NCBI GenBank assembly: GCA_029247785.1
Contig: JAQWKP010000340.1
Location: 1-37,269, forward strand
Length of the DNA: 37,269 bases
DNA from: Novosphingobium sp.
GTDB taxonomy: Bacteria > Pseudomonadota > Alphaproteobacteria > Sphingomonadales > Sphingomonadaceae
Direction: 5' to 3'
Numbering within the stretch: position 1 is the stretch's first letter; every line of letters starts with the position of its first letter. This document shows, one piece after another, positions 10,164-33,304 of this stretch. The notes beneath the pieces were generated by a model that saw nothing but the letters and a program-made list of their open reading frames with translations, did no database searches and was not told where the DNA came from. The translations under genes were made by a program, and so were the position numbers.

Positions 10164-11543
10164 GTGAAGCTAGCGACGAGAAACGAGCAGGTGACTGGAA
10201 CGCTGGCCAAACTCGTAGTCCTGCTCGCTCTCCTTTTGTTCAGCTCAAAGATGGTCTCAGCTGCGACAGAAACTTCCACCCGCTTCGAAGGCGTGGCGAG
10301 CTGTGCGGGCTCTACTTGTCACGGGCGCAACGAAGGTGACGGCAAGGTGGTGCGCCAGGATGAACTGAGAATCTGGCAGGAACCCTCAAGCAAGGCTGGT
10401 GCACATAGCCGGGCATTCAGCGTCCTCGCCAGCCAGCGCGGCCAGCGCATTGCTTCCGCACTCGACCTCGGAAAAGCGACCTCCGCAACGGAGTGCCTTG
10501 GTTGCCATTCGACTTTTGTGCCAACTGAACGGCGAGGCGAGCGCTTCCTCCTATCGGACGGTGTCGGCTGCGAATCTTGCCACGGTGCAGGCTCCGGCTG
10601 GCTTTCCGGACACTATGCCGTTCCGGCAACCCACACGTCGAACGTCGCTGCCGGCTTGCAGGAACTCAATCACCCGCAAGTCCGTGCGTCGGTTTGCCTC
10701 GACTGCCATTTCGGAAGCGACAGACAGGGACAATTTGTTACCCATGCCATGATGGCGGCTGGCCATCCGCGTATTTCGTTCGAGTTGGACTTGTTCTCAG
10801 CCATGCAGCAACATTACAACTTCGACACCGACTACAAGCGTCGCAAGTCCACGCCGGACGCCCTACAACTCTGGGCGGTCGGCCAAGCTGAAGCCGTGAA
10901 ACGCTCCACCCGGCTGTTCGGCAATGCCAAGCTGGCTACCGAGGGCATCTTTCCGCAGTATTACTTCTTCGACTGCCACAGCTGCCATCGCCAGATCACC
11001 GATAACCCGACTGCCAACCGCCGGTTCGAGACCAATCCGGGCCGACCGATGCCGTTCGGCTTGGCACCATACAATGACGAGAATATCATTATACTGTCGG
11101 CGGTGTCCAAAGTCCTGGCCCCCGGCCAGGCATCACGCTTCGATGCTGCCAGCCGCAAGTTCCACTCTGCGATAGGTCAGGGGCGCTCACAGGCCGTTGC
11201 GGCGGCACGCCAGCTCAATGCGGCAGCTGATGCGCTCTCCGATGCCCTTGCCGTGCGGGGCTTTGCCGGAGGCACCGCATTTAGTGTCATCGAGGCGATC
11301 AGCAGCAAGGCAATCTCGCCCCGCTTTACCGATTATGCAGGGTCCGTTCAGGCAGTCATGGCTATCGACACGCTACTCAATTCTCTCGTGAAGGATGGAC
11401 GCGTCACGATCGGTGCAGCGGCAGGGATTCGAGCCGACATCAACCGCGCCTATGCTGCTGTTGGCAGCCCAGAACGCTATAGCCCCTCGCAATTCCGGGC
11501 GGCGCTCGGCCGCGCTTCTCGCAGCATCGGAGCGCTTAACTAA
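10164..11543 (+). CDS. Cytochrome c554-like multiheme c-type cytochrome (4 CXXCH + 1 CX4CH)
   Basis: 459 aa, GTG start with GGGAG SD-like motif upstream, signal-like N-terminus; heme motifs CAGSTCH (CX4CH), CLGCH, CESCH, CLDCH, CHSCH. Confidence 0.88.
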   Translation: MKLATRNEQVTGTLAKLVVLLALLLFSSKMVSAATETSTRFEGVASCAGSTCHGRNEGDGKVVRQDELRIWQEPSSKAGAHSRAFSVLASQRGQRIASALDLGKATSATECLGCHSTFVPTERRGERFLLSDGVGCESCHGAGSGWLSGHYAVPATHTSNVAAGLQELNHPQVRASVCLDCHFGSDRQGQFVTHAMMAAGHPRISFELDLFSAMQQHYNFDTDYKRRKSTPDALQLWAVGQAEAVKRSTRLFGNAKLATEGIFPQYYFFDCHSCHRQITDNPTANRRFETNPGRPMPFGLAPYNDENIIILSAVSKVLAPGQASRFDAASRKFHSAIGQGRSQAVAAARQLNAAADALSDALAVRGFAGGTAFSVIEAISSKAISPRFTDYAGSVQAVMAIDTLLNSLVKDGRVTIGAAAGIRADINRAYAAVGSPERYSPSQFRAALGRASRSIGALN

Positions 11544-13525
11544 TGCGCAAGTTGCCAGGATATATTTCAAGTGCGGCGCTTTCTCTGTTGGTAGCCTGCA
11601 GCGGCGGGTCAACGCCATCTGGTGGCGGATCATTCGGGACCGGAACGCCTTCACCAACCCCTACGCCCGCAGCAGCGGGCAGCTACTCGATACCTGCGAC
11701 CGAGGCCCTCACCGTCGTCGATGTGCGACGGATCATCGCTCAGGCCGTCGGTGAAGCACAGGCTCAGAACCTTCCGTCGATCATTGCCGTGGTCGACCGT
11801 GTCGGAAATGTGCTGGCCGTCTTCAGCATGAACGGCGCTCGCCCGGACATGGTGACCAGCCGGCTCACTGCCACTGGCGTTATCAACAATCCCAATGTCG
11901 ACGCCCAAGGTCTGAATGTTCCGGCAACACTGGGGGCCATCGCCAAAGCTGTCACCGGGGCGTATCTATCAAGCGGCGGCAATGCCTTTTCCACCAGGAC
12001 TGCTAGTCAGATCGTCCAAGCTAATTTTCCGCCTGCCCCCAATACAGTCGGTCTCGAGAGCGGTCCGCTTTCCGGTGTGCAGTTCAGCCAACTGCCTTGT
12101 TCCGATCTCAACACTCGTTTCAAGGCGGGGGCCGCCACCGATGCGTTGATCGGCCCCAAACGGTCGCCGCTTGGGCTTGCGGCAGACCCTGGTGGTCTGC
12201 CGCTCTACAAGAATGGTGTGATCGTTGGCGGAATCGGCGTGATGGGTGACGGTGATTACGGTCTAGACCCCAATACACTCGATATCGATAGCGATGCTGA
12301 AGAACACATCGCTCTTGCCGGCATTCAGGGATTTGCGCCGCCTGAAACGATCACGGCGGACAAGATCACAGTCGACGGCACCAGCCTGCGGTTCAGCGAT
12401 GCCAAAGCTGCAAGCCTTTCCCCGCTCCAGACCAGTTTCGCCGTGGTGAACGGCTCGGCAGGACAGTTGATCGCCGTCAATGGATATACCAACGGCACCA
12501 TGATCGCGGGCACTGCTTATGGGACCGAAGCCAGCGGCTTCAGGAAGGCGGCCGGCGGGGACTTCGCCTTCTCCGATGCCTTCGTGTTGAGCAACGGCGC
12601 TGGCGGCAATCGTTTTCCGATCAAGGCCGGGACTGACGGAGTCGATGTCAGCCAGCCACTCACCGCTGCAGAAGTCCGCGCAATCCTTGAAGAAGCCTTC
12701 AAGCTCATGCGTCGCTCACGGGCCCAGATTCGTCGTCCACTTGACAGCCGGGCAGAGGTGACCGTCAGTCTCGTCGACACCTATGGCGCGGTGCTCGGTG
12801 TCGTCCGCTCACCCGACGCCCCAATCTTCGGAACCGACGTCTCGCTGCAGAAAGCGCGCACCGTCGGCTTTTTCTCGAACCCGATCGCAGCCCAGCAGCT
12901 TCTCAATAACCCGGACGCGGAAATTCCCGCATTCGTCCAGCGTACTCGAACATTCTTTGGCGATCCCACTGCCCTGAGCGGCAAGGTCGCGTTCGGCGCC
13001 AGGGCGATCGGCAATATCGCGCGACCGCACTTCCCCGATGGTGAAGCGGCTCAACCTGAGGGACCATTCTCACGACCTATTGAGGATTTCAATCCATTCG
13101 CCACCGGCCTGCAAGTCGCACTCGTCGCCTCTAATCTGGTGCAACACGCAAATTTTGTTAGCGGTCAACCAGGAGCCAGCGACACCGCCCAGCAGTGCAC
13201 GAATGTCCCGCCTGCGCCTTCGGGCCAGAGCCGGCTCGCAAACGGCATGCAGATATTCTCCGGAGGCGTTCCAATATACCGCAACGGAGTGATCGTCGGC
13301 GCGATCGGCGTCTCCGGCGACGGCATCGACCAAGACGACATGATCAGCTTCCTTGGCGTCGATCTTGGCGGCAAGAGAGTCGGTTCGATCGGCAACGCGC
13401 CCTCGGCGATCCGGTCGGACAAAGTCGTGATCAATGTCGGTGCCGGAGTGCGTCTACGCTACGTTAACTGCCCGTTCGCGCCATTCCTCGATTCGGCTGA
13501 ACAGAACGTCTGCGCGGGTCTGTGA
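11543..13525 (+). CDS. Lipoprotein with two GlcG/HbpS (DUF336-like) heme-binding-type domains
   Basis: 660 aa; lipobox LLVAC at the N-terminus; two copies of the family pattern (VVDRVGNVLAVFSMNGA ... GGLPLYKNGVIVGGIGVMGDGD and LVDTYGAVLGVVRSPDA ... GGVPIYRNGVIVGAIGVSGDG). TAATG overlap with the preceding gene. Confidence 0.82.
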   Translation: MRKLPGYISSAALSLLVACSGGSTPSGGGSFGTGTPSPTPTPAAAGSYSIPATEALTVVDVRRIIAQAVGEAQAQNLPSIIAVVDRVGNVLAVFSMNGARPDMVTSRLTATGVINNPNVDAQGLNVPATLGAIAKAVTGAYLSSGGNAFSTRTASQIVQANFPPAPNTVGLESGPLSGVQFSQLPCSDLNTRFKAGAATDALIGPKRSPLGLAADPGGLPLYKNGVIVGGIGVMGDGDYGLDPNTLDIDSDAEEHIALAGIQGFAPPETITADKITVDGTSLRFSDAKAASLSPLQTSFAVVNGSAGQLIAVNGYTNGTMIAGTAYGTEASGFRKAAGGDFAFSDAFVLSNGAGGNRFPIKAGTDGVDVSQPLTAAEVRAILEEAFKLMRRSRAQIRRPLDSRAEVTVSLVDTYGAVLGVVRSPDAPIFGTDVSLQKARTVGFFSNPIAAQQLLNNPDAEIPAFVQRTRTFFGDPTALSGKVAFGARAIGNIARPHFPDGEAAQPEGPFSRPIEDFNPFATGLQVALVASNLVQHANFVSGQPGASDTAQQCTNVPPAPSGQSRLANGMQIFSGGVPIYRNGVIVGAIGVSGDGIDQDDMISFLGVDLGGKRVGSIGNAPSAIRSDKVVINVGAGVRLRYVNCPFAPFLDSAEQNVCAGL

Positions 13526-13526
13526 A

Positions 13527-15548
13527 ATGCCGATAGCGTCACTGCTCGTTCCAATGTTACTGGCCCAGCCTATAGCCGGAGCGGCCGCAGGGGATCTTAC
13601 TACGTCGGAGAAGCTTGCACGAGAGACGAGCGAGAGCGCTCCGGATGACGACGCTGACTGGGTGGGGTGCATCGTCGAGACAGACCAGAACATCATTTGT
13701 CCGCCAGGCGTTGAAGAAGCTCCCGACACGGTCGACCCCGGATTACTTGAGGGACGCCGCCGGCCTGGCCTTGAAGCCGCCCTTCCCGAACGCGTTACCC
13801 AAGACAATCCCGGCGCCGTCCGCGCCCCACCGCCTGAGGCCTTTCCCGTGGATCAGGTACCCATTCCAGACCGCTGGCGGCTGATTCAATCGCTAGGCCT
13901 GGTTAAGGAGCGCTGGTTCGATCCTTACAACCAGAACACATACAAAGGCGACCGACCGATTTGCATCCCTACCGAGGATGAGCAAGAAAGGCGGATGGCT
14001 CTGCGCGAGGCCGCGCGAGCCGAAGGCAAAAAGCCGCCCTATGGAAGCGCGCCATGCCTTACACCAAAATTCCTGGGCTTGACTGGGGATGACTGGTTCT
14101 TCGCTGCCAACCTTGTTTCAGACACGGTTTTCGAACCCCGCACATTCCCCATACCTGTCGGGCTGCAAACCACCACCCGGCCGGACACGCTCGACCTCTT
14201 CGGCAAGGATGCGAGCATGGTATTCTCGCAAACCTTCATCGCCGGCCTCGCTCTGATCAAGGGTCAGACTGCCTTCAAGCCTCCCGATGTAGAGTATCGG
14301 GTGACGCTGGCGTACAACGTAAATTATGTAAATGTACCTGAACGGCGCGTGCTGTTCGTCGAACCATCCAAGCCCTCGCAGCGCACCGACCATTTTCTGG
14401 GAGTCCAGGAAGCCTTCATCGATTATCACATCCGCAACACCTCTGACCGTTACGACTTCGATTCGATTCGTGTTGGCATCCAGCCGTTCCAGGCCGATTT
14501 CCGCGGCTTTCTGTTCAATGACAACCAGTTGGGCATCCGCCTGTTTGGCACCCGGGATAACAATCGATTCCAATTCAACGTCGGGGCATTCTGGCGACTG
14601 GAGAAGGACACCAACAGCGGCCTCAATGCGATTCTGCAAAAACCTCGCAAGGACTGGGTGCTCTATGCAAATCTGTATCGGCAAGATTTCCTGATCCCGA
14701 GCCTAACCAGCCAGATAACCGTGGTCTACAACCGCAACCGCGAAGGCAACCAGATCGAGATCGACGATAATGGCTTTACGGTCCGGCCGGCCCTGATTGG
14801 CGATCTTCGAGGACGTGAGTATGATGTCGTTTATCTCGGCTACAACGCCGACGGGCATATCGGGCGCATCAACTTGACCGCATCGGCCTATGCGGCGCTG
14901 GGCAAAGACCGGAACAGCATCTTCACCAGCGAGCCTGCCAATATCCGTGCATTTTTCGGCGCCGCCGAACTGAGTTATGACCGCGCATGGATGCGATTCA
15001 GGCTATCGGCACTCTATGCGTCAGGTGATGGCGATCCTTACGACAACAAGGAAACTGGCTTCGACGCGATTTTCGAGAATCCGGTCTTCGCCGGCGCCGA
15101 CACCAGCTACTGGATCCGCCAGACGATTCCGTTCGCTGGCGGCGGCCGGGCCGTTTCTGTCAACGGTCGCAACGGTATTCTTAATTCCCTTCGCTCGTCC
15201 AAAGAGCAGGGCCAATCCAACTTTAACAATCCGGGAACGATGCTTCTGGGCGTTGGCGGCGATTTTGACCTGACCCCGGAATTTCGCCTGTCGGTCAACG
15301 CCAACCACCTCTGGTTCGAAAACACATCCTCGCTGCAAGCGCTGCGCAATGAAGGCAGCATTCCCAAGGATATCGGCTATGATCTATCTCTTTCGGCAAT
15401 CTGGCGCCCGAAAGCGACGCAGAACATCGTCGCTCGCTTGTCCGCAGCCGCCCTACTCCCCGGCAAGGGCTTCCGCGACTTGTTTGACAACCAGAACGGG
15501 AACCGGAACTACTATTCGATTCTCGCCAACGTGATATTCACATACTGA
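13527..15548 (+). CDS. Outer-membrane beta-barrel/porin-like protein
   Basis: The ORF opens at 13434, but ATG at 13527 gives MPIASLLVPMLLAQPIAGAAAGD (signal-like) directly after the upstream stop; many amphipathic strand-like segments and a terminal aromatic strand (NRNYYSILANVIFTY). Confidence 0.75.
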   Translation: MPIASLLVPMLLAQPIAGAAAGDLTTSEKLARETSESAPDDDADWVGCIVETDQNIICPPGVEEAPDTVDPGLLEGRRRPGLEAALPERVTQDNPGAVRAPPPEAFPVDQVPIPDRWRLIQSLGLVKERWFDPYNQNTYKGDRPICIPTEDEQERRMALREAARAEGKKPPYGSAPCLTPKFLGLTGDDWFFAANLVSDTVFEPRTFPIPVGLQTTTRPDTLDLFGKDASMVFSQTFIAGLALIKGQTAFKPPDVEYRVTLAYNVNYVNVPERRVLFVEPSKPSQRTDHFLGVQEAFIDYHIRNTSDRYDFDSIRVGIQPFQADFRGFLFNDNQLGIRLFGTRDNNRFQFNVGAFWRLEKDTNSGLNAILQKPRKDWVLYANLYRQDFLIPSLTSQITVVYNRNREGNQIEIDDNGFTVRPALIGDLRGREYDVVYLGYNADGHIGRINLTASAYAALGKDRNSIFTSEPANIRAFFGAAELSYDRAWMRFRLSALYASGDGDPYDNKETGFDAIFENPVFAGADTSYWIRQTIPFAGGGRAVSVNGRNGILNSLRSSKEQGQSNFNNPGTMLLGVGGDFDLTPEFRLSVNANHLWFENTSSLQALRNEGSIPKDIGYDLSLSAIWRPKATQNIVARLSAAALLPGKGFRDLFDNQNGNRNYYSILANVIFTY

Positions 15549-18500
15549 TGCGGCTGCTGCGCTTCCTCCTTGTCTTGATTGCGATCCTTATGGTCGCGGT
15601 GCCGTCGGCCCAAATCCTGGCGAGCGACGATGAAATGACGGTTGAGCGCGACTATTCGCTGGTAACCGCGCCGCCCGCTCCGGCCAGGCAGTCCGTTGCA
15701 GATGTCCGGATGAAATCGGAAGGCTGCCTGAGCTGCCACGTCGAGACCGATTCGGCCAGCATGCACGCCACGCCTGCGGTCCGGCTTGGCTGCACCGATT
15801 GCCACGGCGGCAACGCCACCATCAAAGGCAATCCCGAACTAGGCTTTTCCCATCCCGACTATGTCGCGGCGCGCGATGCTGGCCATGTCCTACCGAAATA
15901 TCCGGAAAGCTGGCACTTCCCGACTTCAGCCAACCCCAAGCGCGGCTACACCCTGCTCAACAAGGAAGCGCCCGAATTCGTCCGTTTCGTCAATCCCGGC
16001 GACTATCGTATCGCCCGCGAATCCTGCGGTGCCTGCCACCTCCCCGTTATCGAGGCTGCTGAACGCTCGCTAATGGCATCAGGCGCGATGCTTTGGGGCG
16101 GGGCCGCCTATAATAACGGCATTATCCCTTTCAAGAACTACGTCCTAGGGGAAGCCTACACACGCGAGGGTGAGCCAGCCAAGATAATTTCCCCTGGCTC
16201 ACCTGCCGGCACCCTGACAGCTGAGCAGCAGGCGCGCGGAGCCCTGGCAGCACTGTATCCGCTGCCCCGCTGGAATGTCATCCCGCCGGGAGACGTGTTT
16301 CGCGTCTTTGAACGCGGGGGTCGCAATATAAACTCGCAGTTCCCGGAAATCGGGCTGCCGAACCCGTCAGGCCAGATTCAGCGGCTCGAGGAGCCAGGGC
16401 GGCCCGACCTCAAGCAGTCGAACCGAGGTCCCGGCACAGGCCTGAGAGTCGCTATCCCGGCGCTCAACATCCACAAGACTCGGCTCAACGACCCTTTCAC
16501 CTGGTTCATGGGCACCAATGACCAGCCCGGCGACTACCGCAGCTCAGGCTGCACCTCATGCCATGTCATCTACGCGAATGACCGAGAGCCGCGGCACAGC
16601 CTGATCTATGCATCGCTAGGGCGGGATGGGCAGACGATCACAAAGGACCCCACTATCGCGGCCAAGCTGGAACCTGCTCAAAGCAACGATCACGGTGATG
16701 GCCAGAATGCGATGCCCCACGATAGCGACGACCGCGGCAAGACCCCGGGGCACGGCGACGGGCACAACTCGGACGGCAAGGCCAAAGAAAAAGGCCATCC
16801 CCTCCAGCATATCTTCACTCGCGCCATTCCAACGGCCCAGTGCATGAATTGCCACATGCATCAGCCTAACGTCTTCGTGAATCCCTATCTTGGCTACACT
16901 ATGTGGGACTATGAATCCGACGCGCCGAAAATGTGGCCCGGCCCTGAAAATGAAACGCCCCGGCCCGAAGGGATCAGCGACGAAGAATACCAAAGAGTAT
17001 ATAAGCAGCAGCGCTTTCCCACTGCCGAGGAAGTGCGTGCCATAAATGAGCGCAATCCCGAAGCCGCCGCAGCGAAGGGCCTATGGGGCGATATCGATTT
17101 CCTGCGCAACGTCTATGACCTCAACCCCGAGCTCAAGGACACGCAGTTCGCGGACTATCACGGCCATGGCTGGAATTTTCGTGCCGTTCTGAAGCGCGAC
17201 CGCGATGGCAACCTGCTCGATGCCGATGGCAATATCGTCGACCCCGACGATCCGGAGAAATGGCGCCGCAAGGATGAGGGCAAATTCGTCGAAGTGGGCA
17301 AAAATCCGGGCAAGACCGTCCACATGATGGATATCCATGCTGAAAAAGGGCTGCAATGCGCGGACTGCCATTTCGCGCAGGACAGCCATGGCAACGGACT
17401 TATCTACGGCGAAGTAGCCAATGCCGTCGAAATCGGCTGTAAGGATTGTCACGGCACTGCCGACGCATATCCGACCCTGCTAACATCGGGACCGGCGGCG
17501 CCCCCGACTGGCAATGACCTGACCCTGCTGCGCAATCCCGATGGCGAGCGCCGCTTCGAATGGCGCGAGGAACCATCCGGACGCAGGACGCTGATCCAGC
17601 GCTCGATCATCGATCCAGGCCTGCAGTGGGAAGTCAGCCTTGTCAGGAATTCGGTTGACGCTGCTTCGCCCGATTTCAACTCCAAATCAGCGCGCGCAAA
17701 GCTGATAAGCACGGCCGGAGCAGATGACGGCAATTATGCTTTCGGCCCCGGCATCACGGTGGAAAATCGCGCCCACAAGGATGACGAGATGGCCTGTTTC
17801 ACTTGCCATCTGTCATGGACAACGAGCTGCGGTGGCTGCCACTTGCCGATCGAGGCGAACTGGCAAACCTCGATGCACCACTATGAGGGCGAGACGACAC
17901 GCAATTTCGCAACCTACAACCCACAGGTTGCGCGCGACCAAATGTTCCAGCTGGGCAAGCACATGACGACCAAGGGCAGTCAAGTTGCGCCGATTCGTTC
18001 GACCTCGGCGCTCGTGCTGTCCTCGACCAACATCAACCGCGAACGGATCTATGTGCAGCAGCCGCCAATCTCGTCCTCGGGCTTTTCCAGCCAGGCATTC
18101 GCACCTCACTTCCCGCACACAGTTCGTAAGACGGAGACCAAGGCTTGCACCGATTGCCATCTCAGCGCCGATGAAGACAACAATGCGATTATGGCGCAGT
18201 TGCTGCTGCTCGGCACCAATTTTGTCAATTTTGTCGGCATCAACGCCTGGGTCGGGCTCGATGGTGGCTTTGAGGCCATACGGGTGACCGAATGGGACGA
18301 ACCGCAAGCAGTGCTTGGCTCTTACCTGCACCGCTATGCCTATCCCGACTACTATCGCCTGCATGTCGAGAAGAACGGGCGCGAGCTGAAGAATTGGGTG
18401 CGGGGCAAGTATTTTGATGGCAGCGCTTCCGGCGAAACCAAGGCGATCGAGCAATTCCGCAATGTCGTGCAGGGCACGCGTGGCGCCGTGGGCTGTCTGC

Positions 18501-19711
18501 AGATGCGCGGCGAATATATGTTCGTTGCCGAAGGCAAGGGCGGTTTGCACGTCTATGATATTGCCTCGGTCGGCAACAAGGGCATTTCCGACCCGGTCTT
18601 CAGCGCGCCTTTCTCCCCGCTCGGCCATGACACTCGGGTCAAGACCAGCAATGCCACCTGTATGGCGCTTGCAACTAACCAGCCTGTCGCACCCGACCGT
18701 AGTCGCGCCATGGATGCCACCGAGATGATGGACAGCGACGGCAATCCGATCATCCAGGAAGACGGCACTCCGCTGACTTTGCTTGAGGCCAACCAGGAGC
18801 AGAAATTTCTGCCGATTTATGATTACGCTGTCATCACTGACAGTGAAGAGGGCCTGATCCTTGTCGACATCAACACCATGGCGGACGGCGAATTCCGCAA
18901 CAACAAGCTCAAGCGTGCGGCGACCTGGAATCCAGACAAAGTACTCGCGGGCGCGCGCCACATCACCCTGGCCGGCGAAATCGCTTACGTCACTGCAAAT
19001 GCCGGACTCGTCGTTGTCGACCTCACCGACCCGCTCAATCCCGTGCTCGCCTCGGTCCAACCGCTAAGAGATGCCCGCGCAAGCGCAGTGCAGTTCCGCT
19101 ACCTTTGGGTGACAGACGCTGAGGGATTAAAGCTGTTCGACGTTACTGATCTGCGCAGACCGGTCGCCGTTCCATCGGGCACGGTCTCGCTAGCCGACGC
19201 GCGCCGAATCTATCTCGCGCGCACCTACGCATATGTCGCTGCGAAGCAGGACGGGTTGGTGATCGTCGACGTAACTCAACCTGGATCGCCGAATATATAC
19301 GAGAAGGTTACTCTGGGCGGACGGCTCAACGACGCCGAGGACGTGATCGTCGGTTCGACAAACGCTACCCTCTTCGCATATGTCGCCGACGGCAGAAACG
19401 GACTCAAGGTCCTGCAGCTGACCTCGCCATCGACCCAGCCTAATTTCTACGGCTTCTCACCCGCGCCGAAACCGCAGCTAATCGCCTGGGCAAAAACGCC
19501 TTCGCCGGCGCGAGCGCTGTCCAAGGGGCTTGATCGTGACCGGGCGGTCGATGAAACAGGCGGCCAAATGGCTATCTTTGGTCGCCTCGGATCGCGGCCC
19601 TTCACCCGACCGGAAATGGAAAAGCTGTTCCTCAACCGGCAGCGCGTGCCCTTCAAGGTCACCGACACAGTCGACATGTCGACATGGGTCCCGCTGCCCG
19701 CGCCGCAGTGA
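15548..19711 (+). CDS. Large decaheme c-type cytochrome with C-terminal LVIVD-repeat (beta-propeller-like) region
   Basis: 1387 aa; N-terminal signal-like MRLLRFLLVLIAILMVAVPSAQILA; ten CXXCH (CLSCH, CTDCH, CGACH, CTSCH, CMNCH, CADCH, CKDCH, CFTCH, CGGCH, CTDCH); C-terminal repeats such as GLVVVDLTDPLNP, GLKLFDVTDLRRP, GLVIVDVTQPGSP. Start overlaps the upstream stop (TGATG). Confidence 0.92.
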   Translation: MRLLRFLLVLIAILMVAVPSAQILASDDEMTVERDYSLVTAPPAPARQSVADVRMKSEGCLSCHVETDSASMHATPAVRLGCTDCHGGNATIKGNPELGFSHPDYVAARDAGHVLPKYPESWHFPTSANPKRGYTLLNKEAPEFVRFVNPGDYRIARESCGACHLPVIEAAERSLMASGAMLWGGAAYNNGIIPFKNYVLGEAYTREGEPAKIISPGSPAGTLTAEQQARGALAALYPLPRWNVIPPGDVFRVFERGGRNINSQFPEIGLPNPSGQIQRLEEPGRPDLKQSNRGPGTGLRVAIPALNIHKTRLNDPFTWFMGTNDQPGDYRSSGCTSCHVIYANDREPRHSLIYASLGRDGQTITKDPTIAAKLEPAQSNDHGDGQNAMPHDSDDRGKTPGHGDGHNSDGKAKEKGHPLQHIFTRAIPTAQCMNCHMHQPNVFVNPYLGYTMWDYESDAPKMWPGPENETPRPEGISDEEYQRVYKQQRFPTAEEVRAINERNPEAAAAKGLWGDIDFLRNVYDLNPELKDTQFADYHGHGWNFRAVLKRDRDGNLLDADGNIVDPDDPEKWRRKDEGKFVEVGKNPGKTVHMMDIHAEKGLQCADCHFAQDSHGNGLIYGEVANAVEIGCKDCHGTADAYPTLLTSGPAAPPTGNDLTLLRNPDGERRFEWREEPSGRRTLIQRSIIDPGLQWEVSLVRNSVDAASPDFNSKSARAKLISTAGADDGNYAFGPGITVENRAHKDDEMACFTCHLSWTTSCGGCHLPIEANWQTSMHHYEGETTRNFATYNPQVARDQMFQLGKHMTTKGSQVAPIRSTSALVLSSTNINRERIYVQQPPISSSGFSSQAFAPHFPHTVRKTETKACTDCHLSADEDNNAIMAQLLLLGTNFVNFVGINAWVGLDGGFEAIRVTEWDEPQAVLGSYLHRYAYPDYYRLHVEKNGRELKNWVRGKYFDGSASGETKAIEQFRNVVQGTRGAVGCLQMRGEYMFVAEGKGGLHVYDIASVGNKGISDPVFSAPFSPLGHDTRVKTSNATCMALATNQPVAPDRSRAMDATEMMDSDGNPIIQEDGTPLTLLEANQEQKFLPIYDYAVITDSEEGLILVDINTMADGEFRNNKLKRAATWNPDKVLAGARHITLAGEIAYVTANAGLVVVDLTDPLNPVLASVQPLRDARASAVQFRYLWVTDAEGLKLFDVTDLRRPVAVPSGTVSLADARRIYLARTYAYVAAKQDGLVIVDVTQPGSPNIYEKVTLGGRLNDAEDVIVGSTNATLFAYVADGRNGLKVLQLTSPSTQPNFYGFSPAPKPQLIAWAKTPSPARALSKGLDRDRAVDETGGQMAIFGRLGSRPFTRPEMEKLFLNRQRVPFKVTDTVDMSTWVPLPAPQ

Positions 19712-20334
19712 CCGGACAGGTGCCAGAGGAATTTCCTCCAGGCGCCTTTGCTCGGGTGGATGAAAGCGACGATTCCGCATTCTATTTCCCGCCGCGCCTT
19801 GTCACGCACATCGACGATCAGGCAATCGCAGCGCTGTCGGAGTTTTATGGCAAGACCCTGAATCCCGGCGAAACCGTACTCGACCTGATGTCGAGCTGGG
19901 TGAGCCATTTGCCGCCGGAATCGGATCTAGCAGAGGTCATCGGCCACGGCATGAACGAGGAGGAACTGGAGTCCAATCCGCGCCTCTCGCGCTGGTTCAT
20001 CCAGGACCTCAATCACGAAATCGCGCTGCCGCTGGACGCGGCAAGCTGCGATGCCGTGCTTTGCTGCGTCAGTGTCCAATATCTGCAGAGGCCGGTTGAG
20101 ATCTTTGCCGAGGTTCGCCGAATTCTTCGACGCGGCTCGCCATTCATCGTCAGCTATTCAAACCGCTGCTTTCCGACCAAAGCCGTAGCCATCTGGCGTT
20201 CTCTCGATACGCGCGGACACGCCTCGCTGGTCCATCGCTACCTTGACTGCGCTGGCTTCTCGGAAATCGATGTGCATGTGCTGGCGAACGGGATGAACGG
20301 TGATCCGCTCATTGCCGTTGCAGGCAGGGCATAG
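19708..20334 (+). CDS. Class I SAM-dependent methyltransferase-like protein
   Basis: ORF track gives 19684, but GTG at 19708 overlaps the upstream stop (GTGA). Motif I-like ETVLDLMSSWVSHLP, then LPLDAASCDAVLCCVSVQYLQRPVEIFAEVRRILRRGSPFIVSYSNR (Methyltransf_11-like). Confidence 0.75.
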   Translation: MTGQVPEEFPPGAFARVDESDDSAFYFPPRLVTHIDDQAIAALSEFYGKTLNPGETVLDLMSSWVSHLPPESDLAEVIGHGMNEEELESNPRLSRWFIQDLNHEIALPLDAASCDAVLCCVSVQYLQRPVEIFAEVRRILRRGSPFIVSYSNRCFPTKAVAIWRSLDTRGHASLVHRYLDCAGFSEIDVHVLANGMNGDPLIAVAGRA

Positions 20335-20364
20335 GCCAAAAGCAGAGATCTGGAGGAAATAGTC

Positions 20365-20703
20365 ATGAACATTGCCGCAAGCCCCTGGTTACTCATGTTC
20401 ATAGCAATCGGAATCGAAGTGCTCGGCACGATGGCGCTCAAGATTTCCGACGGATTCGCTAAGTGGCACTGGGGTATGCTCGCAATATTGCTCTATGCGA
20501 TTTGCTTCTGGCTGCTAGCCCATGTCCTCAAGGCGATTCCGATCGGAATCACTTATGCAATCTGGTCGGGAGCTGGAATCGTGGCAATCACGGCCATCGG
20601 CTATATGTTCTTCAACGAACAACTCGGTTGGCTCCAACTGTTATTTATCGGGCTTGTGCTGATCGGCTGCGCTGGCTTGAGACTGACCACCAGCGTCGCC
20701 TGA
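20365..20703 (+). CDS. Small multidrug resistance (SMR/EmrE-like) transporter
   Basis: 112 aa, four TM segments; EVLGTMALKISDGF...IPIGITYAIWSGAGIVAITAIGYMFFNEQL typical of SMR. Confidence 0.92.
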   Translation: MNIAASPWLLMFIAIGIEVLGTMALKISDGFAKWHWGMLAILLYAICFWLLAHVLKAIPIGITYAIWSGAGIVAITAIGYMFFNEQLGWLQLLFIGLVLIGCAGLRLTTSVA

Positions 20704-20707
20704 CGCC

Positions 20708-21562
20708 TCAGCCAAGTCCCCGGCGCTCTTCGTCGATATGCTTGACGATTTCCTGCAGGGATTTGTCAAAGCGAGCGAAAACGCGGTGGTCATCGACGGC
20801 TTCGAAATGGGAGATCAGGCGTTCGCCATCCCAGTGATGCAATGCGTAAACCGGGTATTCGTCGGTAATCATTGCGCGCTTGTCAGGTTTTTTGGGGTTG
20901 ATAGGCCTCAAATCGAGAGCGACGAGCGGCGCGGTCGAGGCGCAGACTGTTAACGGCACTCCATTCCACAATGCGTGGATGTTGCGATGAAGGTGTCCGC
21001 TAAGGATCGCCTGAACTTGGCCATGACCGGCGATACTATCGGCAAACCTCTTCATCCAGGGCTCATTGGCGTTACCATCAAGCCAGCTGATTCCCGATTC
21101 GAACGGCGGATGATGCATCGCAATGATCGTCGGCGTATTCGGATGGGCGGCGAGCTCAGATTGCAGCCAGGCCGCACGAGCCTCACAGAATGCACCGCCA
21201 TGCCGCCCTGGCTCAAGCGTATCGAGCAGAAGGACCCGCGCGTCCTCGGCTTCGATCGCAAATTGGATGAAGCTCTCATTGCTGGGCGTGTCAGGAAAGG
21301 CGGCCAGCATGGCATCACGATCATCATGGTTGCCGACCATCGGCCAGACCGGAAACGGGCAGATATCAACAGCCTCGGCGAGTCGCTTATAGCTTGGAGC
21401 ATCGCCAAATTCGGTGAGATCGCCTGTCATCACGAGCGCGTCGGGTGCGTTGGGCGCATCGACAAGCCTCTGGATAACCGCCTCGAGGCGTTCCATGTTG
21501 TATTCGTCCGGGTTTCCCTGGTCAAAACCGATATGAACGTCAGTGATCTGTGCGATCAGCAA
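20708..21562 (-). CDS. CpdA-like metallophosphoesterase (candidate 3',5'-cyclic nucleotide phosphodiesterase)
   Basis: 284 aa; MLIAQITDVHIGF, VMTGDLTEFG, MVGNHDDRD, AMHHPPFESG, ILSGHLHRNIH are the metal-ligand motifs of class III cyclic nucleotide phosphodiesterases. Confidence 0.87.
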   Translation of the reverse strand: MLIAQITDVHIGFDQGNPDEYNMERLEAVIQRLVDAPNAPDALVMTGDLTEFGDAPSYKRLAEAVDICPFPVWPMVGNHDDRDAMLAAFPDTPSNESFIQFAIEAEDARVLLLDTLEPGRHGGAFCEARAAWLQSELAAHPNTPTIIAMHHPPFESGISWLDGNANEPWMKRFADSIAGHGQVQAILSGHLHRNIHALWNGVPLTVCASTAPLVALDLRPINPKKPDKRAMITDEYPVYALHHWDGERLISHFEAVDDHRVFARFDKSLQEIVKHIDEERRGLG

Positions 21563-21616
21563 TCTATTCTCCCCACCTCGTTCCCTTATTCATTCGGGCA
21601 TCGTAGCGGCCGGCAA

Positions 21617-23356
21617 TCAGCCTTGTTCTTTGGCCCGAGAATTCCGCTTTCTGTCGGTTGTATCCACCGCTCCTTGTCCCGTCATGTGATAACCATGGCA
21701 CATAATACAACTCGACGGCACTTTTGCTTTCACCGTGTCTTCGCCGAGATGGCATTGACGGCAGTCCTTGATGCCTGGAAGCAGCAGGTCCTTTGCGCTG
21801 GTTGATGTTGGCGCCGCGTGGCAACTCGTGCAATCCTCTTGCTTATGGGCTGCGTGGTCAAACCAACCATGGTCCATGTACCGAGATACAAGTGTCACTG
21901 GCTGCACACCGATCTTGCCATCGGCGCGCGATGCGGGTCTGTGACATTCCCCACAAATTCCATCTTTCGACAAGGCTATCCCGACTTTCAATCCTTTCCA
22001 TGCCGCACCAGAGAAATTGAAATGATAGGGTCGGCCCTGCGCGTAATCGCCTGGCCGGCGGCGCGCTGAAATGGACTGCCGCCTGAAATCCCCCGCGCTT
22101 AGATCCGCGATCACCTGATCGACATCGCCATGCCTTAGCTTGCGGAAAATGCCACCAACCTGATCATAAGTCAGGCTGTGACAGGCCTCACAATCCCGCT
22201 CCATGTCGATTTTCTGGAAGCGAATTCCGTCCTCTGTCGGCCTGTGACAGTCCTTGCATTGCAGTCCGCCCGCGCCGTAACCGGCCTCACTGCCAATATT
22301 CGCCGCCATTCGCGCAACCCCGCCCTTTGTCCGGAGATGAAGTTTATGCGGAAATGTCAGGCCACTGTCTTCCCGCGGACGCCTGTCCAGCGAAACGCGG
22401 ACCGGCTTGCCGATGGTGGAATCGGTGATAATGGCCGGCGCGAACTGCGGATGCTGGCTACCGAAATCAACTGCTTCGCCGAGGCTGGTATCGGGCAAGT
22501 TCTCCTTGAGCATGCCATGGCAGTCTGCACAAAATGCCTGAGGCGCCGGCTCCATGAACCGATTGCCCTCATGCTCTGTATGGCAGTCCGCGCAGGCTCC
22601 CGGACCTTCCTTCCCAAATGCATGAGCGACGGACCGGAGGAGCTTAGTTCCCAGCGGCCTGCTTCCGTGTGCCGCGTCCAGCCGGGTTAAGTCGGCATGG
22701 TCATGCAGATCGGTGTGACAGGACTTGCAGGTTTCATCCCTCACCGATTCGAAAGCGCGAACATGGCAGGTTTCACACTGATCCTTCAGACCGTGATGGG
22801 CGAGGCTCAGATCGCCGGAGCTCCAGCTGGAATCGCCAATAACCTGCTGCTTGGCCTCGACATCGCGTGTGACGTGGCTGACGATCGGAACAGCAAGAAA
22901 CGACAAGAGTATGAATGCAGCCAGGGCCCACGACATGACGCGCTTGCTCGGCAGTACGCCCGCCAGCGAGAAGCCTAGCTTCTGTTCTAGATCGCCCGAC
23001 TTTGTGGCTGAGTCCTCGACCTGCCTGACAGTCAGCAGAACATCATCGGCGTCGGCAGAGATGGTGATGCGATATGTGCCGAAGCCGAGTTCGCCACCAC
23101 CGCTCCTATCAATTGTGGCTTGTGACGTTTCGACGCCGTCGAGCGAAAACCCCAGCGTGCCGGTCGCCTCGACACTTAGCCTGCCCCCCCCATGCTCAGT
23201 GATAGTCGCGTGCTGCGGCTCGATCGCGAGGTCGGGCAAGTGAATCCCATTCTCTGCCGCCCGTCCGACAGACACGCTCGATCCGGCATGTTCATAGTCT
23301 CGAACAATCTCGCGACCGGTAGCCGTGAACTCGACCGTCCTGAGTTTGAATGCCAT
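21617..23356 (-). CDS. FHA domain - transmembrane helix - decaheme cytochrome c fusion protein
   Basis: 579 aa; N-terminal FHA pattern SVGRAAENGIHLPDLAIEPQHATITEHGGG, single TM VMSWALAAFILLSFLAVPIVSHVT, then ten CXXCH (CETCH, CKSCH, CADCH x2, CKDCH, CEACH, CGECH, CTSCH, CRQCH, CIMCH). Confidence 0.9.
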   Translation of the reverse strand: MAFKLRTVEFTATGREIVRDYEHAGSSVSVGRAAENGIHLPDLAIEPQHATITEHGGGRLSVEATGTLGFSLDGVETSQATIDRSGGGELGFGTYRITISADADDVLLTVRQVEDSATKSGDLEQKLGFSLAGVLPSKRVMSWALAAFILLSFLAVPIVSHVTRDVEAKQQVIGDSSWSSGDLSLAHHGLKDQCETCHVRAFESVRDETCKSCHTDLHDHADLTRLDAAHGSRPLGTKLLRSVAHAFGKEGPGACADCHTEHEGNRFMEPAPQAFCADCHGMLKENLPDTSLGEAVDFGSQHPQFAPAIITDSTIGKPVRVSLDRRPREDSGLTFPHKLHLRTKGGVARMAANIGSEAGYGAGGLQCKDCHRPTEDGIRFQKIDMERDCEACHSLTYDQVGGIFRKLRHGDVDQVIADLSAGDFRRQSISARRRPGDYAQGRPYHFNFSGAAWKGLKVGIALSKDGICGECHRPASRADGKIGVQPVTLVSRYMDHGWFDHAAHKQEDCTSCHAAPTSTSAKDLLLPGIKDCRQCHLGEDTVKAKVPSSCIMCHGYHMTGQGAVDTTDRKRNSRAKEQG

Positions 23357-23371
23357 GCCCCCGCTCCCGTT

Positions 23372-24235
23372 CTACCAGTAGTAGAGCACGCTGATGACGT
23401 GCGCGAGAAGCGCGGCTATCAGTGCGATCGTCGCTGGAACGTGAATGTAGAGCCAAACCTCCAGCATTCCCCTTAGTCGCATCTGTCGCCGGATTCGTTC
23501 AAGCTGCGCCTTGCGCCGAACCATGAGCTTTTCGACCCGATCCATAGCGGTGTCGGAAGAATCAGAACCGGCCAGTCCCTCGATAGCAGCCTGCGTTGCA
23601 CAATCTGGATGGTTGCCGGATAGCCTTCGAAATAGGCCATGGTCGAGAGGATCTTCCGCAAGGGCCTCAAGCACAAGGTCGGCCTGCACCCGGGCAAGCG
23701 GCTGCGCTGCATCGTGGAGCTGACGATCGAGCGACGTGATGGCGTCAACCATTTGCCCTTGAGTCATTTCCTCCCGGTTGCTGCTGAGCGCGCTTGGCAA
23801 GGTCGCATACAAATAGGTCCCGAATACTCCTGACAGGATCACCAGCATCATCATGGCATAGGCTAAGGTATGTACGTTCCAGCCCAACTGAAAGCCGGTG
23901 TGCAGCGTGGCAATTACGATAAGCGAGAGCCCGAGATAAACATGGGCCGACGTCCAGGCTTTGAGCGACCAGTTGCCCTGCGTGATCATTCGCTTGCGAA
24001 TACCCAGAAGCGAAAGCCAGAGGATTAGAAGGGCTCCGATCGTACCCAGAATATAGCCGATCCAGCTCCCCCCGTTCGGGCGTGGCTCGACATCCGCCAA
24101 CAGGTAGGCAATCAATGATACGACGCTGGCGCCAAGCGCAATCTTCAGCCAACGAAAGCTCCTGTGACGCAGGAAGCTTTCATGGCTGCCCGGGCCGCCG
24201 CGCGCCCTGTTTGCAGTGTGAGGCTTGGTGGCCAT
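23372..24235 (-). CDS. Putative b-type heme membrane protein (cytochrome b561/ferric-reductase-like)
   Basis: 287 aa, about five TM segments; spaced histidines in TM segments (SAHVYLGLSLIVIATLHTGF, NVHTLAYAMMM, WLYIHVPATIALIAALLAHVISVLYYW) around a soluble helical insert; TGATG overlap with the upstream gene. Confidence 0.7.
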   Translation of the reverse strand: MATKPHTANRARGGPGSHESFLRHRSFRWLKIALGASVVSLIAYLLADVEPRPNGGSWIGYILGTIGALLILWLSLLGIRKRMITQGNWSLKAWTSAHVYLGLSLIVIATLHTGFQLGWNVHTLAYAMMMLVILSGVFGTYLYATLPSALSSNREEMTQGQMVDAITSLDRQLHDAAQPLARVQADLVLEALAEDPLDHGLFRRLSGNHPDCATQAAIEGLAGSDSSDTAMDRVEKLMVRRKAQLERIRRQMRLRGMLEVWLYIHVPATIALIAALLAHVISVLYYW

Positions 24236-26682
24236 CAGGCGTCTTCACTCATGCGCGTAGCTGAAAGGAAGCCCTCTGGCGAAACGCGGATTGCTGCACC
24301 CGTAGGGCAGGCGCGAACGCACGATGGGCCGCCATCGATACCCGAGCACATGTCGCATTTGATGGCGCGCTTGGGACTTTCTTCGCCTTCAATAATATTC
24401 TTCTTGCGCCAGCTCTTGGTTGGCTCACCAGGGCCGGGCCCCTTGCCCAGAAATAGCCAATTCAGCAGAGAAGGCTTGGCCGGCGGTACACTGTCCATGC
24501 GGATCACCCCATAGGGACAGTTTCTCTGACAATTGCCGCATCCGATGCAGGTCTCGTCGATGAAGACTTCTCCGTCGATGCCGCGCTGGATCGCGTTGGG
24601 TGGGCAGTCGGCCATGCAATGCGGGTGTTCGCAATGACGGCAGCTGGTCGGAACGTGAAGATGCGCATAGGTCGTACCCGCCTCGCGATCGAGGCGCGAG
24701 AGACCGTCATGACTATCCGCGCATGCCTTTTCACAATTGTCGCAGCCTACACAGAGCGTTTCGTCAATCAGCAGGACGTCCGTCGCCTCGCCGATGCCGT
24801 TGTCGACAAGGAATTGGGCGGTCTGCGAATACATATCGACGACGCCGGAAAAATTCTCCTTGCGGCTTTCAATGAACGTGTTGACCTCCCTGCGTTTTTC
24901 CATTTCCACCTGGGCCTTGCGGAGCAAGTCTGGCTCGCGTTCAAGCAGGCGGACAAAGGCATCGCCAGGCAGCCTGATGACCTCGGATTTGATCGCCGCG
25001 CGCACCGTCGCGTTGCGGGGCGCACCGTCGATAACGCCCATTTCCCCAACATAAGAGCCAGCAGGCAAATAGCTTAGAAACACTGGCTTGCCGGCAATCT
25101 CGCGCTCGACGATCATCGAGCCGCGGCGGATGATATAGATATCCTCCCCCATCTCGCCTTCCTGAAGGACGACCTCGCCAGCCCGCTTGTTCTGCACTTC
25201 CGCGCCCTCAACCAGTTCGGCGACATCCTCCTTGGTAAGTCCCGAGCCAAATATCTGGAGCAATTGCCGTTCGATCGAGATCCGGTTGACCGCCCGCGCA
25301 GCGCTCGGAACCGTCGCGATCAATTTGAGCGCCGCAGTACGCAACAGCTCGACAACTACAAGGTCCTCGGCCGCACGGATCGTTGCGCCTCGGCGCCTAC
25401 CCGAGATCAGGCCGACTTCGCCGAAAATCGAGCCTTCCTCGATCGGAACGGTAATCGAAGGGTCTTCCTTGTTGACCTCGACCAGCACCGAGCCTTGCGC
25501 GATGGCAAATAGCGAAGAGCCGGGCGCATTGCGGTCGAAAACCGCGTCCCCGCGAGAAAAGCTTTTCACTCGGCTGTCGATCAGCAATTCGCGAAGTTGC
25601 AGAGGCGAGAGTTCCTTGAATATCTCGATGTTACTGCCAAACAGATCAAGCCACTCGGCGACACTCCGGCTGCCTGGCAGCGCAGCAAATTTTTCAGTCA
25701 GGATCGGCTCGTCTGCGGGCTTGAGCGTCGTATTGCCATTGAGAAATTCTACGACATCATAGCCCTGATTCATACAGTGCTTGATCAGCGGGTAGCCAGC
25801 CAGCGCACCGATGACATGGATCCCTGAACGGGTCGTCTCGAACACTGGCGAGAGTACCGGAAAGGCTTCGCGTTCCTCGCTGGTGAATTCAATGTCGCAG
25901 CCCTCGACGAAACTGCGCGGCGGCGCCGAGCCGGTTCGGGCGATAATCCGCCCACACTCGATGGTTTCCTGCCCGTCGCGTGTGTCGAGCACGAGCTTTC
26001 CTTCGCGAACCTCGGCAGGCGTCGTCTCGGTCCTCACATGCACACGGCCGGCCGCTCCTGCCTCCTTCAGCAATTCGACATTGGCCTTCTTCGCACGCGC
26101 GAATTCCGGGCTGCGGTTGAGGATCGTGACCACGTTGCGCTGCGCTGGATCGGCGGCAAGGCCAAGCGCGTTCTCGATTCCGGCGTCGCCCGATCCAACC
26201 ACAGTGATATGTTCGTCAATATACTCGGTCGGATCGTCGAGCTGGTACTGGATATGTGGCGAGTCAGCGCCGTCGCAACGCAGCTTGTTGGGATTGCCCT
26301 GGGTTCCGATCGCGAGAATGACGGCTTCGGCTTCGATAGTGTCTCCGCCTTTGAGCTGGAGAGTGAAATTGCCCTTCTCGCCGTCGATGCCGACAACATC
26401 CGCGTTGTAGCGGACGGCAATCTTGTTAGTCTCGGCCTGCTCGTCCCAAATTCCGAGAATGGTCTCGCGGCTGCCCGCGTCGAAATCGAGGTCAGACCTG
26501 AGGACCAGCATGGATGGCGTCGCCATGACGTGCTTGCCCTTCTGGTACTTGTAGATCGTGTCCGACAGGTGGTCGGTCTTTTCCAGCAACACGTGCGCAA
26601 TGCCAAGCTCGGCAGCGCGGCCAGCAGCGCTCAACCCCGCCGGACCAGATCCGACTATGGCAATCCGAACGCGTACTTCCAC
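24235..26682 (-). CDS. FAD/NAD(P)-dependent oxidoreductase fused to two cyclic-nucleotide-binding domains and a 4x[4Fe-4S] ferredoxin (HycB/DmsB-like) domain
   Basis: 815 aa; Rossmann IAIVGSGPAGLSAAGRAAELG; second Rossmann ITVVGSGDAGIENALGLA; two cNMP-type segments (GSVLVEVNKEDPSITVPIEEGSIFGEVGLISGRRRGATIRAAED and GSMIVEREIAGKPVFLSYLPAGSYVGEMGVIDGAPRNATVRA); Fe-S motifs CVGCDNCEKAC, CRHCEHPHCMADCP, CIGCGNCQRNCP, CDMC...CVRACP. Confidence 0.92.
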   Translation of the reverse strand: MEVRVRIAIVGSGPAGLSAAGRAAELGIAHVLLEKTDHLSDTIYKYQKGKHVMATPSMLVLRSDLDFDAGSRETILGIWDEQAETNKIAVRYNADVVGIDGEKGNFTLQLKGGDTIEAEAVILAIGTQGNPNKLRCDGADSPHIQYQLDDPTEYIDEHITVVGSGDAGIENALGLAADPAQRNVVTILNRSPEFARAKKANVELLKEAGAAGRVHVRTETTPAEVREGKLVLDTRDGQETIECGRIIARTGSAPPRSFVEGCDIEFTSEEREAFPVLSPVFETTRSGIHVIGALAGYPLIKHCMNQGYDVVEFLNGNTTLKPADEPILTEKFAALPGSRSVAEWLDLFGSNIEIFKELSPLQLRELLIDSRVKSFSRGDAVFDRNAPGSSLFAIAQGSVLVEVNKEDPSITVPIEEGSIFGEVGLISGRRRGATIRAAEDLVVVELLRTAALKLIATVPSAARAVNRISIERQLLQIFGSGLTKEDVAELVEGAEVQNKRAGEVVLQEGEMGEDIYIIRRGSMIVEREIAGKPVFLSYLPAGSYVGEMGVIDGAPRNATVRAAIKSEVIRLPGDAFVRLLEREPDLLRKAQVEMEKRREVNTFIESRKENFSGVVDMYSQTAQFLVDNGIGEATDVLLIDETLCVGCDNCEKACADSHDGLSRLDREAGTTYAHLHVPTSCRHCEHPHCMADCPPNAIQRGIDGEVFIDETCIGCGNCQRNCPYGVIRMDSVPPAKPSLLNWLFLGKGPGPGEPTKSWRKKNIIEGEESPKRAIKCDMCSGIDGGPSCVRACPTGAAIRVSPEGFLSATRMSEDA

Positions 26683-26802
26683 CCCATACCCCCGTTGTGT
26701 GCCATGACGACGATTGCTTTATACCCAGAACTTGCCCAGACCCGGAAGGGCCCCGTTCGACTATTCTCCTTCGACAACAATAGTAATGACCGGAAATGCC
26801 CG

Positions 26803-27729
26803 ATGACACAACATACAACCCGACCTTACCCGATTGCCCGGATCGCATTGATCGTCGCTGCGCTGGCAGCGGCATTTGCGGTGGGATTTACGATCTCGAG
26901 AAGCGCGGATGAGGGTGGCACCAGCGACCTCACTGTTCCCGATGCCGTCTCCACAGTAGCGTCGGTTTCAAGCCTGGAGGAAAAAACCAAGGCAAATCCC
27001 GAAAACGCACCCGCCTGGCTGGAGCTAGGCCAGGCCTATTTTGTCGATAGCCGGTTCGCAGACGCAGCGCGGGCCTATGACAAGGCGACCGCCCTCGTTC
27101 CGGACGACGCGATGGCGTGGTCGGCGCTCGGCGAGGCGCGGGTCATGGCAAGCGAGCGTGATCCGATGCCAGCCGAGGCGCTCGCCGCATTCAAGCGCGC
27201 CATCGCCCTCGATAGCAAGGAGCCACGAGCACGGTATTTTCTCGCCGTCAAACGGGACCTTGATGGAGACCACGAGGGGGCCATCGCTGACTGGCTCGCC
27301 GTGCTTATGGACACACCCGAGAACGCTCCCTGGCGCGGCGACTTGATCCGCACGGTCGAGCAGGTCGGCAAGATCAACGGGATCGACGTCGCCGCTCGCC
27401 TCGCAAAGGCCGGCGCGCAATCCCCTCCCGCACCGCCCATGCCTGCGGCAGCGCGCGCCATACCCGGGCCCTCGGCGCAGGACCTTGCAGCGGCTTCGCA
27501 AATCCCGCCGGGCGAGCAGCGCGAAATGGCCGAAGGCATGGTCGCGCGGCTGGAAAGCCGTCTCAAGGGCGACCCCGCCAATGTCGACGGGTGGCTGATG
27601 CTGATCCGCAGCCGGGCAACGCTTGGCCAGAAGGACAAGGCGAGCCAGGCGCTCAAGGACGCAGCAGCAGCTAACCCGGCACAAGCGGCCGCGATTCGCC
27701 AGCAGGCCGCGACGCTCGGCGTGAAGTGA
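26803..27729 (+). CDS. CcmI/NrfG-like TPR protein, putative cytochrome c biogenesis factor
   Basis: The ORF opens at 26038 but that part is antisense to the reductase gene; ATG at 26803 gives a TM anchor (IARIALIVAALAAAFAVGFTI) plus TPRs and C-terminal AASQIPPGEQREMAEGMVARLESRLKGDPANVDGWLMLIRSRATLGQKDKASQAL, a CcmI-like region. Confidence 0.83.
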   Translation: MTQHTTRPYPIARIALIVAALAAAFAVGFTISRSADEGGTSDLTVPDAVSTVASVSSLEEKTKANPENAPAWLELGQAYFVDSRFADAARAYDKATALVPDDAMAWSALGEARVMASERDPMPAEALAAFKRAIALDSKEPRARYFLAVKRDLDGDHEGAIADWLAVLMDTPENAPWRGDLIRTVEQVGKINGIDVAARLAKAGAQSPPAPPMPAAARAIPGPSAQDLAAASQIPPGEQREMAEGMVARLESRLKGDPANVDGWLMLIRSRATLGQKDKASQALKDAAAANPAQAAAIRQQAATLGVK

Positions 27730-30097: not shown

Positions 30098-30673
30098 TCA
30101 CCCAAAGATTGCCGCGATCGCGTCCTGGCTTTCGTAAAGGAAGACGAAAAACGTCAGCGACAATCCGACCTGGAAGGTGCGATAAGCGTATGCGAGCAGG
30201 CGGTATTTCTTGGTCTGAAGGGCCATGCCGTTCTGGTAGATATCGCGCGCCATGGTTGAAAGCACGCGACCGTCGGTCTCGCTCGCTTCCATCATCCGGT
30301 CGATATAATCGTCCTCCAGCATGTGCGTGAACACACCGAAGAACAACAGGTTTCGCCTGGCGCCTGTGGGTGGCTTAGCCATGACCTTGGGGACCACCGC
30401 GGCGACTGCGAAACTCGCCGAAATGAATGCCGAAAGCGCCAGGATCAACAGCGAAATCTTGTAGCTCCCTGCCGCCGCCTGGCCGACCGCGATGGAGAAT
30501 ACGACAAAAGACGCACCCATCAGCAAGCTCGCCTTCTGATCGGCCATCTGGCTCAATTGCATGTGCACCATCATGGAGGTGCGCACCAGGTGGATGGCGT
30601 GGTTGGAATAGCTGGTGTCGTCGTATTTCGTGAGTGACGAGTCTGTTTGTTCCGCCAATTTATGGCCCTCCAT
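30098..30673 (-). CDS. Pycsar-effector-family (PycTM/DUF5706-like) membrane protein
   Basis: 191 aa; HLVRTSMMVHMQLSQMADQKASLLMGASFVVFSIAVGQ, two-TM core, C-terminal DIYQNGMALQTKKYRLLAYAYRTFQVGLSLTFFVFLY match the PycTM layout. Confidence 0.78.
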   Translation of the reverse strand: MEGHKLAEQTDSSLTKYDDTSYSNHAIHLVRTSMMVHMQLSQMADQKASLLMGASFVVFSIAVGQAAAGSYKISLLILALSAFISASFAVAAVVPKVMAKPPTGARRNLLFFGVFTHMLEDDYIDRMMEASETDGRVLSTMARDIYQNGMALQTKKYRLLAYAYRTFQVGLSLTFFVFLYESQDAIAAIFG

Positions 30674-33301: not shown

Positions 33302-33304
33302 CGA

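Follow-up and report, generated by a model that had tools for sequence, protein, structure and literature searches.

A candidate 25-heme electron relay, with possible cyclic-nucleotide gating, encoded by two operons of Novosphingobium and other Sphingomonadaceae

Two convergent operons of Novosphingobium sp. lie at positions 10164-27729 of contig JAQWKP010000340.1 (37,269 nucleotides, analyzed as one stretch and referred to here as the window), with the genes A-B-C-D on the plus strand and J-I-H-G on the minus strand; counting K, nine genes make up the conserved set. Based on their sequences and genomic distribution, we favor, by a modest measure, the reading that they encode a trans-envelope electron relay, which would carry electrons from NAD(P)H to the outer membrane along about 25 hemes with its input gated by a cyclic nucleotide. 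The reading frames of all named genes were intact at the following positions (protein lengths in amino acids, aa).

A: 10164-11543, plus strand; 459-aa 5-heme c-type cytochrome of the cytochrome c554 family, with a Sec signal
B: 11543-13525, plus strand; 660-aa lipoprotein with tandem HbpS-like domains
C: 13527-15548, plus strand; predicted outer-membrane beta-barrel of ~673 aa
D: 15548-19711, plus strand; 1387-aa decaheme cytochrome with C-terminal LVIVD repeats and a Sec signal, without a lipobox
E: 19684-20334; methyltransferase
F: 20365-20703; SMR transporter
G: 20708-21562, minus strand; 284-aa protein of the calcineurin-type cyclic-nucleotide phosphodiesterase family, SpdA/CpdA-like
H: 21617-23356, minus strand; 579-aa protein with an FHA domain, one predicted membrane segment and a periplasmic decaheme part
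I: 23372-24235, minus strand; 287-aa b-type inner-membrane protein (IMP) with two WX3HX13H motifs and SGXXG
J: 24235-26682, minus strand; 815-aa protein with an FAD/NAD(P) domain (YpdA-like), two cyclic-nucleotide-binding (CNB) domains and 16 cysteines
Divergent promoter region of J and K: 26683-26802; the gap separating the two start codons
K: 26803-27729, plus strand; CcmI/NrfG-like TPR protein, divergent from J

The first-pass annotation of this DNA described two opposing operons with about 25 heme motifs in three proteins, and counting gave 25: one CX4CH and four CXXCH motifs in A, ten motifs in D and ten in H. The domain set that it listed (HbpS-like, LVIVD, FHA, FAD/4Fe-4S and CcmI-like) was recovered with Pfam, which matched Cytochrome_C554 on A (E 4.5e-10), HbpS-like domains over four stretches of B (E 2.6e-24), LVIVD on D (E 5.9e-19), FHA and Cytochrome_C7 (c7/c3) on H, Pyr_redox_3, two cNMP_binding domains, Fer4_7 and Fer4_11 on J, and TPR_CcmH_CycH on K (E 1.6e-16). 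The starts of C and K were corrected from 13434 to 13527 and from 26038 to 26803, respectively. The spacing of the 16 cysteines of J fits four 4Fe-4S clusters. For G, the NCBIfam models SpdA and CpdA scored 148 and 93 bits, each under its cut-off.

The heme counts of five, ten and ten were kept in 87 of 88 (A), 106 of 108 (D) and 74 of 74 (H) distinct homologs, and the order of motifs in A, CX4CH followed by four CXXCH, was likewise found in 87 of the 88. All ten CXXCH motifs were invariant in the alignment of D, as were the ten of H together with several further histidines, down to 25% identity. Among homologs of I, both WX3HX13H motifs were present in 75 of 78 and the SGXXG between them in 64 of 78. 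These motifs are those of a di-b-heme protein, and presumably two b-type hemes are bound. A lipobox-like motif was seen in 82 of 96 homologs of B.

Whether the operons belong together could be judged from other genomes, where the first-pass annotation had expected them to be conserved jointly as one system; this was borne out. In a genus sample of 37 genomes, D was present in 17, H occurred in exactly those 17, and J was found in all 17 as well, while J without D was limited to two genomes, one of them 75% complete and carrying a fragment at a contig end, the other with a distant partial match of 30%. In a family sample of 151 genomes drawn across the Sphingomonadaceae, 52 had both D and J, 98 lacked both, and one (67% complete) had D alone (Fisher p = 5e-40, a value that ignores relatedness; the pattern spans 37 genera). 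For about 20 of the 52, the operons were on different contigs or far apart, as in genome G061, where 624 kilobases separate them. In other Alphaproteobacteria (loci L152 to L161), we found a single operon, J-I-H-B-C-D, with A nearby. Two unrelated operons lying side by side by chance would accord with the 14 of 55 loci with full flanks in which the second operon was not adjacent, but this explanation was rejected as extremely improbable given the near-perfect co-occurrence of D and J even when unlinked and the single-operon loci. For the same two reasons, we regard it as settled, on the genomic evidence, that both operons of the window form one working system. E and F, which lie between D and G, were ruled out as parts of this system, as they were conserved in 0 of the 55 loci.

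At least 589 related stretches were detected in a scan of GTDB genomes, and the best 80 of these at least 589 came from hosts such as Novosphingobium, Erythrobacter, Sphingobium, Sphingomonas and Sphingopyxis, which are mostly genera known as aerobes and mainly heterotrophic. The system was also found on megaplasmids of Sphingobium and Sphingopyxis. In the family sample, D was present in 53 of 151 genomes, about one third of the sampled species, many of them cultured. No link with anoxygenic phototrophy was seen, with the system in 12 of 27 phototrophs and 41 of 124 others (p = 0.27, no association). A literature search for this gene set in sphingomonads, with most subscription journals outside its reach, found no paper.

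The first-pass annotation knew of no conduit with such a domain set, a view that needs revision because PCC4 shares the inner module and the system is therefore not wholly undescribed. PCC4 is a porin-cytochrome cluster predicted for Hyphomicrobium, Zetaproteobacteria and others, comprising a porin, multiheme cytochromes with 4, 5 and 10 hemes, an IMP with SGXXG and two WX3HX13H motifs, and an Fe-S protein encoded upstream (He et al., 2017; PMC5566968). We compared the window with four PCC4-like loci (L171, L172, L174 and L175), which were recognized by gene content rather than by published accessions. I was homologous to their IMPs (hhalign probability 99.4, E 1.8e-21) and H to the PCC4 decaheme protein (hhalign probability 99.2, 202 columns), J matched by BLAST, and A matched the 4-heme protein (BLAST, E 1e-7 to 1e-11). 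In subgroup II of PCC4, an Fe-S protein (pfam13247) is encoded directly upstream of the IMP; similarly, J matched Fer4_11 with an E value of 3.3e-10 and is directly upstream of I. The two systems differ in their heme counts (5/10/10 here, 4/5/10 in PCC4), in the YpdA-type flavin domain, which is fused in J here whereas PCC4 has a separate FAD/2Fe-2S reductase, in the FHA domain carried by H, and in B-C-D, which stands in place of the PCC4 5-heme protein and porin. No homology was detected between C and the porins of the PCC4-like loci (hhalign probability 0.2%) or between D and their 5-heme protein. By these comparisons, the inner module (I, H, the CNB-Fe-S half of J, and A) is homologous to the predicted PCC4, while B-C-D is not, and we consider the system a previously undescribed variant of PCC4, itself a predicted, untested conduit.

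Hybrid clusters were also found (L164, L165 and L166), in which I and H of this system stand beside a 5-heme protein and porin of the PCC4 type; L164 and L165 carry J as well, 48 to 50% identical. Given the hybrid loci L164 and L165 and the non-homologous C and D, one inner-membrane input module is, as judged by homology, used with two or more unrelated outer-membrane modules. PCC3 likewise has a porin, multiheme cytochromes and an IMP with the same motifs, but the described cluster lacks a J-type reductase, and its multiheme proteins are usually far richer in hemes, with medians of 34 and 21 (He et al., 2017; PMC5566968). A probable PCC3 locus, L170:1-3657, encodes 13-heme and 21-heme proteins and an IMP, 24% identical to I, beside cytochrome c maturation genes.

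In the relay that we favor, J would oxidize NAD(P)H at its FAD in the cytosol and pass the electrons over four 4Fe-4S clusters to I, whose two b-hemes would bridge the inner membrane and deliver them to the ten periplasmic hemes of H. A, probably a periplasmic shuttle, would take them with its five hemes from H to an outer-membrane assembly of C, B and a D that may be exposed at the surface. From this assembly the electrons would pass to an acceptor located at the outer membrane or outside it; possible candidates are humic quinones, Fe(III) and Mn(IV). K, a probable cytochrome c maturation factor whose gene adjoins J in most linked loci, would aid heme attachment. The inner part of this path, from the FAD/Fe-S protein over the b-type protein to the FHA-decaheme, had already been drawn in the first-pass annotation and is backed by gene order, motifs and PCC4 homology.

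The likely direction is outward, because the chain includes an NAD(P)-flavin domain and the genes encode no ion pump. The converse, with Fe(II) or Mn(II), for example, as external donor and the quinone pool or NAD(P)+ as the destination, has a precedent in the inward flow to quinone proposed for PCC3 and PCC4; PCC4, to which the inner module is homologous, was found in iron-oxidizer genomes, and its model takes electrons from an outside donor to quinone (He et al., 2017; PMC5566968). For the system studied here, however, the NAD(P)-FAD domain is fused in J, and the reduction of NAD(P)+ with such donors would be uphill with no ion pump encoded. The mainly heterotrophic host genera and the lack of a phototrophy link also argue against inward flow, which we consider quite unlikely.

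C had no match in Pfam or NCBIfam. AlphaFold2 (69 sequences) modeled it as an 18-strand barrel (predicted template modeling score, pTM, 0.73) with residues 1-122 of the modeled chain disordered, and among solved structures Foldseek placed it closest to the alginate exporter AlgE (3rbh, E 1.2e-16), followed by OprD/Occ porins. MtrB, a barrel of 26 strands, was not among the 50 structure matches listed. The first-pass annotation had compared the barrel protein with porin-cytochrome conduits such as MtrCAB; the predicted fold is a barrel but not an MtrB-like sheath, and the identity as a solute porin, which that annotation had named as counting against its reading, was found in part. A barrel gene beside multiheme cytochrome genes is a feature shared with MtrCAB, MtoAB and PioAB and with Geobacter OmbB-OmaB-OmcB, whereas the 18-stranded, AlgE-like C differs from the wide (about 26-strand) MtrB-type barrel of MtrCAB-type complexes. 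No window protein matched the MtrA, MtrC or OmcA families at cut-off; the MtrA (DmsE family) model TIGR03508 reached 20 bits on A, with a cut-off of 192. Since C is not of the wide MtrB type, a cytochrome threaded through it is perhaps unlikely. Instead, a narrower heme element may enter the lumen of C, B and D may form the path, or C may be a substrate channel.

The last of these options is part of the main alternative to the relay, in which C would import a small, probably anionic or polymer-derived substrate and a periplasmic D would reduce it via J-I-H-A, with no crossing of the outer membrane by electrons. The model is the Geobacter ExtI porin with ExtM. The ExtHIJKLMNOPQS genes encode a small porin, several multiheme cytochromes, and b-type and Fe-S proteins, and D has a local di-heme match to the ExtM equivalog (60 bits). 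ExtI stands beside multiheme cytochromes and is required for selenite and tellurite reduction, but the Ext inner module is of the Rieske/cytochrome b type, and no CNB, LVIVD or HbpS parts are described for Ext (PMC5877670). The predicted fold of C fits this alternative, as do the missing lipobox of D and its ~100 residues per heme, a density that is enzyme-like more than wire-like. On the other hand, the cut-off for ExtM is 800 bits, B is a lipoprotein, and LVIVD repeats are known from cell-surface proteins (PMC2447325). We consider this substrate-reducing arrangement possible, if rather unlikely.

Several points weigh against the relay as well. The hosts belong mostly to genera known as aerobes, with no obvious need for external acceptors. 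As modeled, the AlgE-like C is far narrower than MtrB, perhaps too narrow for a multiheme cytochrome, and D, in which no lipobox was seen, may be periplasmic; the model of its heme region was too poor to use (predicted local distance difference test, pLDDT, 47.5; pTM 0.31). Finally, not every CNB domain binds a cyclic nucleotide.

The evidence for gating comes from the genes that accompany J. G was present in 41 of 41 full-flank loci with H-I-J adjacent and in 0 of the 14 without. In about 16 loci, A is directly preceded by a CHASE2-nucleotide cyclase gene, often in the order CHAT, cyclase, 246-aa protein, A; the cyclase gene was also seen beside the island in Novosphingobium. In the genus sample, a CHASE2-cyclase (E below 1e-40) was encoded by 11 of the 17 genomes with D and by none of the 20 without it (p = 1.4e-5), and the genome of the window has one, at G000:C362:728-2512. 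The CHASE2-cyclase, G and the two CNB domains of J likely constitute a cyclic-nucleotide circuit, in which the nearby cyclase would make the ligand, the CNB domains would bind it and G would remove it. As cyclase, phosphodiesterase and CNB domains occur together, the gene content suggests that a cyclic nucleotide gates electron input. This circuit, including G, had been overlooked by the first-pass annotation, as had the PCC4 homology of the inner module and the AlgE-like barrel. At the level of transcription, no clear enrichment of CRP, FNR or Fur sites over shuffles was found in 55 homologous J/K gaps or upstream of A.

At L162:577-14683 (Sphingobium herbicidovorans pMSHV), the region directly upstream of A encodes a CHAT protein, a CHASE2-cyclase, a 239-aa protein, a ShlB/FhaC-type secretion protein and a 2092-aa protein; the latter has no Pfam match, and about 13 other loci encode relatives of it upstream of the operon. 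At 30098-30673, the window encodes a membrane protein that matched PycTM, a Pycsar effector model (PF18967, E 1.8e-21), between a glutamate dehydrogenase gene and a sulfatase-like gene. At L029, a CHASE2-nucleotide cyclase gene is two genes from a PycTM-like gene, a candidate Pycsar pair.

The remaining neighborhood of the island contains several further genes. Upstream of A, on the opposite strand and outside the system, is a complete-looking efflux operon of the EmrA/EmrB/outer-membrane-factor type (5792-9914). In 26 of 55 full-flank loci, a gene for an NADP-specific glutamate dehydrogenase (30703-32058 in the window) lies close to the island, in varying orientation; such a gene also adjoins J-I-H in genome G728 (L146). 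Type IV secretion genes (VirB10, VirB4 and neighbors) adjoin the island at 32213-37256, and this copy may therefore lie on a plasmid or integrated element.

Extracellular electron transfer has been studied mostly in anaerobic metal reducers and iron oxidizers. As a tentative and still doubtful proposal, the aerobic Sphingomonadaceae may possess a conduit in which NAD(P)H input is switched by a dedicated circuit (CHASE2-cyclase, G and the CNB domains of J) and electrons leave through a new exit module that combines the AlgE-like 18-strand barrel with the HbpS lipoprotein and the LVIVD-decaheme. An electron conduit gated allosterically by a second messenger would, to our knowledge, be new, and the genes described here suggest that electron flow is under such direct control. 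PCC4, a prediction that has received little study, is now tied to cultivable hosts, and a 25-heme chain in about one third of the sampled Sphingomonadaceae would raise the question of what use aerobes make of it.

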